Source: Actinomycetota bacterium
GTDB taxonomy: Bacteria; Actinomycetota; Geothermincolia; Geothermincolales; RBG-13-55-18
Assembly (NCBI GenBank): GCA_014360645.1
Contig: JACIXD010000013.1
Location: forward strand, 1-64,000
Reading direction: 5' to 3'
Length of the DNA: 64,000 bases
A program made the translations under genes and the position numbers. Below are positions 39,982 to 43,973 of this stretch, piece after piece. Under the pieces are notes generated by a model. That model saw only the letters and a program-made list of their open reading frames with translations. It was not told where the DNA came from and searched no databases. How positions within the stretch are numbered: position 1 is the stretch's first letter; the number at the start of each line of letters is the position of its first letter.

Positions 39982-41166
39982 TCACCCCTCGGCGGGCTCG
40001 GGAACCTCGCCGCCCCCCATGAGGAGGCCGATGATGAGGAGCAAGGCGCCCACGATGAGCAGCGCCCAGGGTATATACACCTTGACGAGGTTGATCTTGG
40101 AGACGGCGTCCTTGGCGTCGTCGATGGCCGACTTCACCGTCTCCTCGGTCTGGGCGATGCTGTACTCGAGGATCTTGCGGGGTTTGGACTCCCCGAGCTG
40201 GCTCTGCAGCCCCATCAACTGCGAGAGCGCCGGCCCCAGCTCGGGATCGTTCGCGTACTTGGCCAGGATGGCGAAGACCCCAGCCAGCTTGGAGGTGTCC
40301 GGCTCCATATACATGGCCTCGGCATCCTTGTACAGGTCCACCGGCGCGCCGGTCTTGGGTTCGACGGAGGTCTCGATGTCGTAGGTCCAGTAATATTTCA
40401 AGGGGATCTTCTCCTGCAGGGCGGCGTCGAGGCTCTGCAGGTCCTCGGGCGATAGGCGACGCTGCGCCAGGGCCAGCAGCCCGTCCACGTCCACCCCCAG
40501 CGCCTGAAGCTGGGGCTTCAAGGCTTCGAAGGTCACCTCGGAGGGCAGGCCGTTGATCTCCAGGTAGGCCGGGACCACCTCTTTCTTCTCCTCCAGCGCG
40601 GCGCTGCCCTTGAAGTTGTAGACGGTGACGCCGAACTTCTCGACCTCCTCGAGGAACTCGCTCTCCCCGGCCTCCCCTATCTCGCCCTTCCATACCTTGT
40701 AGGTCTCGTCCTTTGAGGTGTCGAAGGGCAGGAGGGGATAGTAGCTGCCATCGCGGTTCACGCGGTTGCCGGCTTTGAAGTCATAAGCACGGTCGTCGTC
40801 GAGGTTCTCGGAGCTCTTGCGGTCCAGGGCGTAGACGGACTGCAGGCCGCCAGGCGGGACCTTCATGCCTCCCACCTCCACCGTGACCTCCTCCTTGATG
40901 AGCGCGGTGGAGGAATCGTACTCCTCCGCCATGGAGACCACCCTGCGCTCGACCTTCATGGGCATCTTCATCTCCTCGCCCTCCGGCAGGGGCTCCTGGG
41001 TGGCGGGGTTCACGTAATAGGTCATCTCGCCCTCGTACTTCGTGGTCGAGTCCAGGTCGTCGGGGATCTTCACCATCGCATTGACGGCGATGGCCCACCA
41101 CAGGATGGCCGCCAGGATGAGAACGATACCCAACGCGATGAGTATCTTGCTGGTCAACCCCTTCAT
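39982..41166 (-). CDS. DUF3068 membrane protein
   Basis: This encodes 394 residues with one membrane helix at each end (about 7-28 and 366-386) and a long extracytoplasmic domain of about 340 residues. The layout, with the entry segment KILIALGIVLILAAILWWAIAVNAMVKIPDDLD-like and the conserved inner part KYEGEMTYYVNPATQEPLPE, is that of the DUF3068 family. These are widespread in actinobacteria and called PorA-like, though they are not shown to be porins. The inner domain repeats the theme of paired VKKEVTV-type strands. Function is unknown. It precedes a zinc-ribbon gene. Upstream (41167-41339) the sequence is locally AT-rich and may hold its promoter. Confidence 0.8.
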   Translation of the reverse strand: MKGLTSKILIALGIVLILAAILWWAIAVNAMVKIPDDLDSTTKYEGEMTYYVNPATQEPLPEGEEMKMPMKVERRVVSMAEEYDSSTALIKEEVTVEVGGMKVPPGGLQSVYALDRKSSENLDDDRAYDFKAGNRVNRDGSYYPLLPFDTSKDETYKVWKGEIGEAGESEFLEEVEKFGVTVYNFKGSAALEEKKEVVPAYLEINGLPSEVTFEALKPQLQALGVDVDGLLALAQRRLSPEDLQSLDAALQEKIPLKYYWTYDIETSVEPKTGAPVDLYKDAEAMYMEPDTSKLAGVFAILAKYANDPELGPALSQLMGLQSQLGESKPRKILEYSIAQTEETVKSAIDDAKDAVSKINLVKVYIPWALLIVGALLLIIGLLMGGGEVPEPAEG

Positions 41167-41339: not shown

Positions 41340-42600
41340 CTAGCGGACCACGCCCGGGTAGTAGCCCGCGGAGACGTGCTCTCCCGCCCAGGCTCCACGG
41401 TACCGGAAATAGAGCGGACGCTCCACAACGATGTCGCCACCGGCGTGCACGGAGAGGGCCAGGCCCTCCTGGTAGGGGGTCATGGAGTTGAGGAACACGG
41501 TGGTCCGGCTGTGGGGATCCAGCTTCACCTTCTCATACAGCACCTCGCCGCTCTCGTGGTGCATGCCGACCTCCGCCTCCACCGCCTGCTCACCTGGGTT
41601 CTGAAGACAGAGCCACGCCTCGAATCCATCTCCGGTGTAGCCCTCGGCGAAGTACCAGTGCCGGGAGGGGGCGGTCACCCCTGCCCCCACGTCCCCTCCC
41701 TCGCACCAGCCATGATAATGGTGATAGATGGGGCGCTCCGCCACCAGCGGCCTTTCCCCCGTCACCGCGATGGAGAGCTGGAGGTCGCGGCCGGCGCGGA
41801 GGTTCACGTCCACGGTGCGGCGGCAGAAGGGCGGGATCAGCTCCTGGTCCTGCCTGACCACTCCTTCCGAGGTCTGGTAGGAGATGCTGACCAGATTGGG
41901 TTCGGGGTTGGGGTTGTACAGGCACAGCCACTCCTCGAAGCCGTTCCCGGTGTAGCCCTCGGCGAAGTACCAGGTGGTGGAGGGGGTGTTGACGCCGGGG
42001 GAGACATGCCCGCCCGCCCAGCGGCCGTGGTAGAGGAAGTAGATGGGGCGCTCGGCCACCACCGGTCGGTCCGAGGTCACGCGCAGCGAGACCTCGTGCC
42101 CCGGACCCACGGCCTGGTTGACGAAAACGGTGTCGCGCTGCCGCGGGTGCAGGGTCCTCCGCTCCTGTCCCAGCACTCCCCCCTGCGAGAAGTACTCGAC
42201 GGTCACCTCCGCCGCCTCCTCTCCCGGGTTGAGCAGGCACAGCCACTCCTCGAAGCCTTTCCCGGTGTAGCCCTCGGCGAAGTACCAGGTGGTGGAGGGG
42301 GTGTTGACGCCGGGGGAGACGTGCCCGCCCGCCCAGCGACCTCCGTAGAGGAAATACATGGGCCTCTCCACCATGAGCGGCAGGGGCGAGTCGACGATGA
42401 CGCTCACGTCGCGCCCCTTCCCCACCTCCCGCGCGACCTCGATGCTCATCCTGCTCTCCTCCGGCACCCGGTAGGAACGTCTTTCGGCGCCTTTCCCCCC
42501 GAAGGCGTAGGTGACCTCGAAGGTCACCGGCTCGTGATGGGGGTTGAGGACCGTGAGCCACTCCTCGAAGCCCTCGCGGGTGGTCCCCTCGGCGAAGTAC
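41340..42600 (-). repeat. Four tandem 315-base coding repeats
   Basis: The C-terminal part of the amidase gene is built from four units in exact 315-base register. The codons for the WYFAEG lead-in begin at about 41635, 41950, 42265 and 42580, and the middle two copies share long identical stretches of DNA. Identity is highest between units two and three, which suggests recent duplication or gene conversion. Confidence 0.85.
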
Positions 42601-43643
42601 CAGTGACGGGCGGCGTTCGCCACCATGAGGTCGCGGGATACGGAGGCCGTGCTCCCGTTCCTGTACCGGGCGGTGGCGCGCAGGGAATAGGTGCCGTCCT
42701 CCAGCGCGCCGCAGTCGATCTCGAAGCGGTAGGGTTTGGAGGTCCTGGTGGCCAGGAGCCGTCCCTCCATCTCCAGGTCGAGGCGCTCCAGGCTGTCGTC
42801 TCCCAGGAGCTGCACCTCCACGTCCACCACGCCCTGGGAGAGGCGGTTTTCCTGCGGCAGGGCGAAGCTGATGCTGGAGGGCATGTGGATGCCGCGCAGG
42901 ATGGCCATGGCCTCGCGCTGGAGGTAGGAGTCGTCCCGCAGGCGCCGCTCCTCATCGGGGTTGGAGATAAATGAGGCCTCGGTGAGGATGGCGGGCATGA
43001 CGGTGTTGTCGAGCACCCCGCAGTCATCCACCTTCCATACCCCGGAGTTGCCCAACCCGAGCTCCCCCACCAGCTCCGCCTGCACGGCGTTGGCGAGCTC
43101 CAGAGACTCCCGGCTGGCGTTCACCGAGACCAGGGTCACGGTATAGTTGATGCTGCGGTCGCTCACCGCGTTATGGTGGATGCTGATGAAGCGGTGAGCG
43201 CCCCAGGAGTTGGCCATCTGCCAGCGCTGGGTGATGCTCACCTTGCTGTCGTCGTAGCGGGTCATGCGCACCTCGGCGCCCTCCGCCTCCAGGAGGTCCT
43301 TGAGTTTGAAGGCCACCGCGAGGTTGACGTCTTTCTCCTTGAGGCCCGTGGGACCCACCGCACCCAACTCACTTCCGCCGTGCCCGGGGTCCACGCAGAA
43401 CTTCCAGCCCGAAAGGGTGCCCCCGTACGCCCTCCGCGCTCCGAAGGGGAGGGAAGGAGGAAAGGAGCACGAGAGACAGAGCAGGACCGCGCAGAGGAAA
43501 AGGCCCGCCCCCGTGTTCCAGGCGCCCCGACTCCTCCCGCCGGCGGCACGCGCCGCGGCCGGACATGCCCGTGAGGCGAGCGCCGCGCCCGCCTCACGGT
43601 CACGCCTCCCGCACGAGGGCCAAGCCCCAGCCCGAAGTCTCAC
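41340..43643 (-). CDS. N-acetylmuramoyl-L-alanine amidase with four 105-residue repeats
   Basis: This encodes about 767 residues from a GTG at 43643 after AGGGAGGT; the frame is open about 105 codons further, so the start is uncertain. A signal-like hydrophobic segment (FLCAVLLCLSCSFPPSL) leads to an Amidase_3 catalytic domain with FCVDPGHGGSELG, FISIHHNA and AILTEASFISNPDEE. These carry the zinc His, His and catalytic Glu. A short Ig-like domain follows. Then come four tandem units of exactly 105 residues, each starting WYFAEGxT and containing GFEEWLxxxNP and RPxYFxYxGxWxGGHV. The repeats probably bind wall polymer or another surface partner. It cleaves the peptide from muramic acid in peptidoglycan. 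Confidence 0.85.
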   Translation of the reverse strand: MRLRAGAWPSCGRRDREAGAALASRACPAAARAAGGRSRGAWNTGAGLFLCAVLLCLSCSFPPSLPFGARRAYGGTLSGWKFCVDPGHGGSELGAVGPTGLKEKDVNLAVAFKLKDLLEAEGAEVRMTRYDDSKVSITQRWQMANSWGAHRFISIHHNAVSDRSINYTVTLVSVNASRESLELANAVQAELVGELGLGNSGVWKVDDCGVLDNTVMPAILTEASFISNPDEERRLRDDSYLQREAMAILRGIHMPSSISFALPQENRLSQGVVDVEVQLLGDDSLERLDLEMEGRLLATRTSKPYRFEIDCGALEDGTYSLRATARYRNGSTASVSRDLMVANAARHWYFAEGTTREGFEEWLTVLNPHHEPVTFEVTYAFGGKGAERRSYRVPEESRMSIEVAREVGKGRDVSVIVDSPLPLMVERPMYFLYGGRWAGGHVSPGVNTPSTTWYFAEGYTGKGFEEWLCLLNPGEEAAEVTVEYFSQGGVLGQERRTLHPRQRDTVFVNQAVGPGHEVSLRVTSDRPVVAERPIYFLYHGRWAGGHVSPGVNTPSTTWYFAEGYTGNGFEEWLCLYNPNPEPNLVSISYQTSEGVVRQDQELIPPFCRRTVDVNLRAGRDLQLSIAVTGERPLVAERPIYHHYHGWCEGGDVGAGVTAPSRHWYFAEGYTGDGFEAWLCLQNPGEQAVEAEVGMHHESGEVLYEKVKLDPHSRTTVFLNSMTPYQEGLALSVHAGGDIVVERPLYFRYRGAWAGEHVSAGYYPGVVR

Positions 43644-43973
43644 GCCGGCCTGTACCTCCCTAACGCCCCGTCTCCCGGCCTTCTTTTCTTTCGGCAACCC
43701 GGGGACAAACCCTTGAGCCGGGAAAGCAGGCATGTTGCCGCGATCCCCGCGCATGCTCCTCGCGGCGCGACATCTCCGCCTCCTTACATGTCCATGTGAG
43801 GACGCCGGCGCGGGCGAGGTTCCTACCAGTTTTCCGCCAGCAACTCGAAGTAGTCGACGGGATGGGCGATCACAGGTATATCCCGGGATCACGCATATGC
43901 GCGGAACATGATCTGCACGGCGGAAAAAGACCCAGCACTTTTCGACCGCCCGAACCATCTCCGCATATCGCGC
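43644..43973. other. Intergenic region between amidase and TPR genes
   Basis: These 330 bases may include part of an alternative N-terminus of the amidase, since its frame stays open here. No independent gene or promoter is evident. Confidence 0.3.

Follow-up and report, generated by a model that had tools for sequence, protein, structure and literature searches.

The ASRAH superfamily (Anabaena sensory rhodopsin transducer / TM1070) was defined in 2009 by De Souza, Iyer and Aravind (PMC2739507). Sugar binding was predicted for it on structural and contextual grounds, and binding of peptidoglycan elements was proposed (PMC2739507). Its family 2 is described as secreted amidases, predominantly of Chloroflexi, that carry ASRAH tetrads (PMC2739507), while the Anabaena transducer itself (ASRT) is described as a tetramer (PMC8660804). 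The ASRAH domain and its pairing as a tetrad with amidases are thus already known.

The window, which is the whole 64,000-nucleotide stretch of DNA analysed here, encodes an amidase that resembles family 2 as described in its predicted fold, conserved Trp and Asn, predicted secretion, fusion to an N-acetylmuramoyl-L-alanine amidase, and four copies of the unit. By that description family 2 is always amidase-fused and is found predominantly in photosynthetic bacteria, whereas the units here occur in a whole actinobacterial class and on many types of cargo. The circular permutations that imply a ring are seen here, as set against the description of the Chloroflexi family. TM1070 (1NC7) and ASRT (2II7), of family PF07100, share the unit fold and are both described as tetramers (PMC2739507, PMC8660804), but they are single-unit intracellular proteins that assemble from four separate chains, while here four units lie in one putatively secreted chain. 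The CWB2 triads of Clostridioides difficile, in which three non-identical repeats are needed for anchoring and the ligand is PSII (PMC4973711), are alike in having a small fixed repeat number and varied surface cargo. This is a likeness of working principle only, since CWB2 is another domain family with three repeats instead of four, and its PSII ligand is reported as shown while a glycan is only presumed here. New here are the class-wide spread, the varied cargo, the ruling count of four, and the circular permutation that points to a closed ring. A literature search, with most subscription journals outside its range, found no report of class-wide spread, of a ruling count across cargo, or of circular permutations.

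The amidase gene and its repeat units

The amidase ORF lies on the minus strand at 41340-43958 and is open to 43958, with a GTG at 43643 as the likely start. The features of the gene are as follows.

41340..43643, minus strand: whole gene (GTG start assumed), encoding a putative secreted N-acetylmuramoyl-L-alanine amidase that ends in an array of four ASRAH units
43461..43505, minus strand: hydrophobic signal-peptide-like segment GLFLCAVLLCLSCSF (Kyte-Doolittle scan)
42885..43397, minus strand: Amidase_3 catalytic domain (PF01520, E 1.9e-45)
42675..42872, minus strand: Ig-like linker domain Big_7 (PF17957, 24.1-24.4 bits, cut-off 24.1)
42288..42602, minus strand: ASRAH unit 1 (105 aa)
41973..42287, minus strand: ASRAH unit 2 (105 aa; single-unit prediction pLDDT 94.4, Z 15.7 to TM1070 1NC7)
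41658..41972, minus strand: ASRAH unit 3 (105 aa)
41343..41657, minus strand: ASRAH unit 4 (105 aa), stop codon directly after
41343..42614, minus strand: whole tetrad modelled in one piece (pLDDT 96.7, pTM 0.93)

An earlier, sequence-only reading had called the protein an amidase, and the Amidase_3 profile agrees (155.4 bits, curated cut-off 27). Neighbouring genes on the same strand encode an L,D-transpeptidase with PG_binding_4, and PorA-family (PF11271), TPR and DUF362 proteins. The PorA gene (39982-41166, minus strand, E 2.5e-40), which belongs to a family named after a porin, adjoins the amidase gene. Rfam gave no match in the window, a promoter and terminator scan of the window gave nothing decisive, and a search of a plasmid collection gave no match.

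The four 105-residue repeats in an exact 315-base register, as claimed by that reading, were recovered. The motif WYFAEG stands at residues 453, 558, 663 and 768 (spacings 105, 105 and 105), and repeat finding returned four DNA copies with start-to-start distances of 315, 315 and 315. The landmarks named with them hold in part: WYFAEG is present in 4/4 units, but GFEEWL and RPxYF are read in only three of four each, with GFEAWL in unit 4 and RPIYH in unit 3. The claim that the middle two units are almost identical in DNA failed, as units 2 and 3 share 62.5% of their DNA and 51% of their protein sequence, similar to units 1 and 2 (61% and 52%). Near-identity is limited to a short stretch that spans the unit 1/2 and unit 2/3 junctions, with 97-100% in three 30-nt bins and 87% over 165 nt. 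Pairwise identity of the four units is 33-52% in protein (ungapped) and 50-63% in DNA. The repeats are beyond chance, because all unit pairs are 33-52% identical without gaps and the unit recurs elsewhere in the genome.

Each unit is an ASRAH-superfamily beta-sandwich, since profiles match TM1070 and ASRT and the AlphaFold2 unit model matches the same fold. A profile of 91 units, searched against 177,635 PDB sequences, matched TM1070 (E 5e-5) and ASRT (E 0.021) and no other sequence at E up to 1. Fold prediction had been suggested as a check on the module, and it gave the ASRAH sandwich with 1NC7 as the best match: the single-unit model (pLDDT 94.4, pTM 0.86) ranks 1NC7 first in Foldseek (E 1.6e-7), with Z 15.7 over 106 residues at an rmsd of 2.0, and reaches Z 11.4 with ASRT (2II7). 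The next, unrelated chain is a carbohydrate-binding module at Z 7.4, a level that may reflect only a common arrangement. The whole tetrad matched TM1070 on single units, with no better whole-length match. PF07100 (ASRT) scores 19.6-20.3 bits in the window protein, below its cut-off of 25, and is above the cut-off at three places in the same genome (two alone, one with its neighbours in frame). DUF5719 (PF18986) does pass in the window protein, with 63.3 bits against a cut-off of 26.2, but the best stretch covers only positions 46-129 of the 319-position model; no paper naming DUF5719 was found in a literature search. With E values up to 1 allowed, Pfam lists neither SLH nor CWB2 in the repeat region of the window protein.

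Of the two superfamily landmarks, the Trp that opens strand 1 is present in 128 of 157 units of the genome and the Asn that closes strand 2 in 169 of 170, and both are present in 4/4 window units. At the His position of the SHEshChhN signature, where the ASRT-like family has its ligand-contact residue, 140 of 170 units have an acidic residue instead (E 75, D 65) and only ten have H; the window units have E in 4/4. At the Cys position L (98) and C (50) are the residues counted among 170, with C in 3/4 window units. With the pocket H and C mostly replaced, the signature is lacking and the units are therefore not ASRT-like (ASRAH family 1). The window gene has the features of family 2 according to the family description (secreted, amidase-fused, four copies), and most paralogues scanned carry cargo other than amidase. 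Near-invariant unit residues in the genome are E6, G7, R52, E80, R81 and Y84. A match to a defined binding domain with a known ligand, named with the earlier reading as what would refute it, is found by half: the superfamily is defined, and its ligand is only predicted.

Spread, cargo and number of units

The module recurs across its own genome and in all 31 genomes searched in the class, as a search for it elsewhere, also suggested earlier, showed. The amidase's own genome has 102 protein matches of the unit and at least 151 profile matches (150 of 225 candidates scored), and an iterated profile places 176 units in 56 ORFs within 40 stretches covering the protein matches. At E <= 1e-6, 75 of 396 genomes of the phylum match. 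These include 31/31 genomes of the window's class, with at least 12 matches each, and 44 of 365 outside it, 39 of which have one or two matches. Scored matches in class genomes number from at least 32 to at least 86 each (about 85 candidates scored); the unscored first-look candidates, up to 588 per class genome, are not a count. Four-unit arrays outside the class but in the same phylum occur as single genes in G197:C44 (L241) and G274:C6 (L244, with weak units). A contig titled Ignavibacteriae bacterium (L102) has a four-unit array typical of the class, and is probably a binning error or a transfer.

Cargo was scanned in 46 pieces (51 non-repeat pieces listed, six left out and L062 added). 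Among the matches are Amidase_3, SpoIID, YkuD, NlpC/P60 with SLH, polysaccharide deacetylase, glycoside hydrolase 39, subtilases, M28, caspase-like C14, 5'-nucleotidase, PGA_cap, CAP, DUF362, FG-GAP, and PQQ and PD40 propellers. By our own count nine of the 46 pieces match wall-acting or deacetylase domains, eight match proteases, one matches PcRGLX and one matches both glycoside hydrolase 39 and glycoside hydrolase 10. Nine of the 46 gave no family match at E of 1e-4 or better. A hydrophobic 14-residue segment precedes the array in 30 of 33 four-unit ORFs; among 291 other ORFs of 300 aa or more in those stretches, with spurious frames counted, 52 have one.

Of the 33 four-unit arrays, 28 stop no more than 25 residues short of the C-terminus. 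A C-terminal secretion signal is ruled out as the role of the array, since the other five end farther inside and three of these precede cargo. Related cargo proteins can have the array at opposite ends, N-terminal in L066 of the same genome and C-terminal in G056 (C3 989229-993185) and G090. Either a true rearrangement or an error of assembly may lie behind the swap between L066 and G056.

Four is the ruling unit number in most of the samples counted, arrays cut by contig or stretch ends being excluded. The 53 non-edge arrays of the draft genome have four units in 33 cases, three in 7, two in 7 and one in 6. Samples of five other genomes of the class hold 40 non-edge arrays, 34 of them with four units and three more that are permuted fours, giving 37/40 (G056 17/18, G079 1/3, G090 12/12, G101 5/5, G133 2/2). 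The G056 stretch was chosen blind to the matches inside, though its far end was known to hold some; the other four samples are contigs already known to carry matches. The 76 complete arrays at named loci divide into 56 with four units, eight with five, six with one, four with two and two with three, and seven of the eight five-unit arrays are permuted fours. Relatives of the window amidase, whose amidase domains are 62-87% identical, have four units in all nine complete cases (L071, L073-L078, L080, L088). None of the arrays counted has five, six or seven complete units, and the sole eight, in a G056 ORF, consists of two separated fours.

In the draft genome, neighbouring units share at least 95% of their DNA sequence in nine of the 14 arrays with two or three units, against three of the 33 with four (Fisher p 2e-4). 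Since nine of the 14 short arrays have such near-identical neighbours, assembly collapse of near-identical 315-base units is likely to be behind many of them, while five of the 14 are not explained in this way. Three two- or three-unit proteins of this genome (L043, L066 and the two-unit subtilase L047) have four-unit relatives by cargo. The DUF362 kind varies, with four units in L086, two in L082 and L085, and one in L113 and G079; single units are also found in certain relatives of four-unit proteins.

Units of the window amidase are inherited position by position among its relatives: unit 2 shares 82% identity with its counterpart in L071, against 47, 47 and 51% with L071 units 1, 3 and 4. 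Some other genes show recent homogenisation or duplication, with neighbouring units 91-100% identical in protein. Duplication thus does occur, mostly within a fixed unit count. Unit phylogeny by position was approximated by nearest neighbours, and 62 of 120 units from four-unit arrays of the draft genome have their nearest relative in the same protein. The best match in other proteins is at the same position for 36 of 120 units in this genome (30 expected) and for 28 of 60 in G056 (15 expected), suggesting old block inheritance that is visible in G056 and blurred in the draft genome.

Circular permutation and probable ring closure

The arrays show circular permutation at three cut points, and the fragments at their two ends complement each other. 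At cut 1, arrays whose first unit lacks strand 1 carry a strand 1 at the C-terminus in 15 of 18 cases, against 1 of 112 arrays with a complete first unit (Fisher p 7.5e-16, a guide only, as homologous proteins are not independent and independence is overstated). This comparison covers arrays with four recognisable units, in which a WYFAEG-like motif was sought within 25 residues after the last unit; edge-cut arrays, exact duplicates and any array short of three full units were excluded. Of the three misses, L051 ends in FFAEG and is caught by a shorter motif, and L128 and L256 have neither motif. The shorter motif, applied with no edge filter, finds a tail strand in 16/18 versus 1/117 arrays. 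It is found just before the first unit in 0 of the 18 strand-1-less arrays, and in the tail in none of the 20 remaining arrays whose tail is 12 residues or longer. The 18 arrays form seven cargo clusters, and the tail strand is present in six of them.

Cut 2 lies near profile position 62. Ten proteins (L089, L099, L108, L111, L114, L119, L132, one from G101 and two from G090) start at position 59-63 onward and end at 60-62, with three full units between. L055 from the amidase's own genome has this layout with only two full units between the halves, themselves near-identical. The flanks of cut 2 read as one interrupted glycoside-hydrolase-like domain (GH42, E 5e-4, below cut-off), and the ten proteins are probably one family derived from one event. 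Cut 3 is found in four genomes outside the class, where proteins L237-L240 start at position 41-44 onward and end at 34-35, again with three full units between. Their amidase domain is 36-38% identical to that of the window protein (Amidase_3 in L239, E 5e-54).

In each register the end pieces sum to one unit, except for a few unaligned loop positions in cut 3. This implies a closed ring, since beads on an open chain would end in an incomplete sandwich on either side. The AlphaFold2 tetrad, with pLDDT 96.7 and pTM 0.93 over 424 residues and confident relative placement of the four units, fits closure but does not alone show it. ASRT crystals are reported to show a planar fourfold ring. Velcro-like closure of the four units into a predicted ring, as in beta-propellers, is well supported by the permuted sequences and the model. 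For a whole tandem array to be circularly permuted would be nature's own clean demonstration that it forms one closed fold.

Proposed retention at the cell surface

The best explanation of these arrays is a single-chain closed ASRAH tetramer that would retain secreted proteins on wall glycan, a reading to which we give a probability of about 0.6. The C-terminal 424 residues of the secreted amidase would form the tetramer, with the last unit meeting the first in a rigid ring. This ring would expose four copies of a conserved pocket, made up of an acidic residue and Trp/Tyr on strand 2 and the near-invariant E-G, R, and E-R-x-x-Y, and together the four pockets may bind with avidity to a repetitive carbohydrate in the cell's own envelope. 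Once bound, the ring would keep the amidase at the wall, along with dozens of other secreted proteins. We infer this surface- or wall-binding role, as did the sequence-only reading, from the signal-peptide-like segment, the wall-acting or secreted cargo of the paralogues, and the sugar binding predicted for the superfamily. Counting against the closed tetramer are the 20 of 53 draft-genome arrays with other than four units, the mixed numbers of the DUF362 kind, the two full units of L055, the misses at cut 1, and the sortase present in 22 of 31 class genomes. A more detailed version is put forward tentatively: a propeller-like ring of whole beta-sandwiches, velcro-sealed and re-cut in at least three ways, that serves as a class-wide retention device on dozens of secreted proteins per genome and reads an undescribed wall glycan. 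If so, a repeat of a domain of unknown function becomes a defined object, a closed ring of four with the job of holding secreted proteins on the wall. It would also indicate a surface-retention module shared across the lineage, whose members are bacteria known from metagenomes; several of them lack a detectable sortase, and none shows more than one SLH gene.

A ring that is purely structural or lattice-forming (an S-layer-like coat or a multimerisation hub), working by protein-protein contacts and with no glycan, is unlikely. In its favour, the module is very abundant and SLH domains are nearly missing, and ASRT is described as interacting with rhodopsin and DNA, with no demonstrated sugar in that description (PMC8660804). 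Against this, the near-invariant polar residues E6, R52, E80, R81 and Y84, with the acidic/aromatic strand at the known place of the pocket, resemble a binding site, although they could also serve the ring interface, and the arrays sit on many kinds of catalytic protein. Rather less probable again is that the ring serves foraging or sensing, by binding an environmental polysaccharide or a soluble ligand instead of the wall of its own cell. The sugar binding predicted for the superfamily (PMC2739507) would suit this, and at least two cargo kinds are glycoside-hydrolase-like, but the single glycoside hydrolase and single PcRGLX piece are set against nine wall-acting or deacetylase and eight protease pieces among the 46.

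The sequence-only reading saw the array as an open tandem repeat of a wall-binding module that duplicates freely, and this we consider very improbable. Neighbouring units that are 91-100% identical in some genes, the 62 of 120 units with their nearest relative in the same protein, and the arrays of one to three units count in its favour. The fixed four that rules most samples, the gap at five to seven among the arrays counted, the position-wise inheritance, and the circular permutations with their complementary ends all speak otherwise, and favour the closed tetramer.

SLH domains and sortase were considered as general anchors in the class and are unlikely to serve as such. SLH matches occur in at most one ORF per genome, in 26 of 31 class genomes, and the SLH ORF of the amidase's own genome itself carries a tetrad. 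Sortase was present in 22 of the 31 genomes and was not found in nine, some of which are incomplete. With sortase missing from nine of 31 genomes and SLH limited to one ORF per genome, another general retention device is therefore wanted, though other anchoring does exist as well, given the sortase of the 22. No sorting signal is evident by eye in the array tails inspected. At G000:C3:135637-136005 and C4:238237-238611 a sortase gene is found some 2 kb or some 6 kb away from a tetrad gene (by-eye comparison), with no obvious functional link in the one stretch read. A like proximity of sortase and tetrad genes is seen in G015, G079, G176, G187, G198, G283 and G330.
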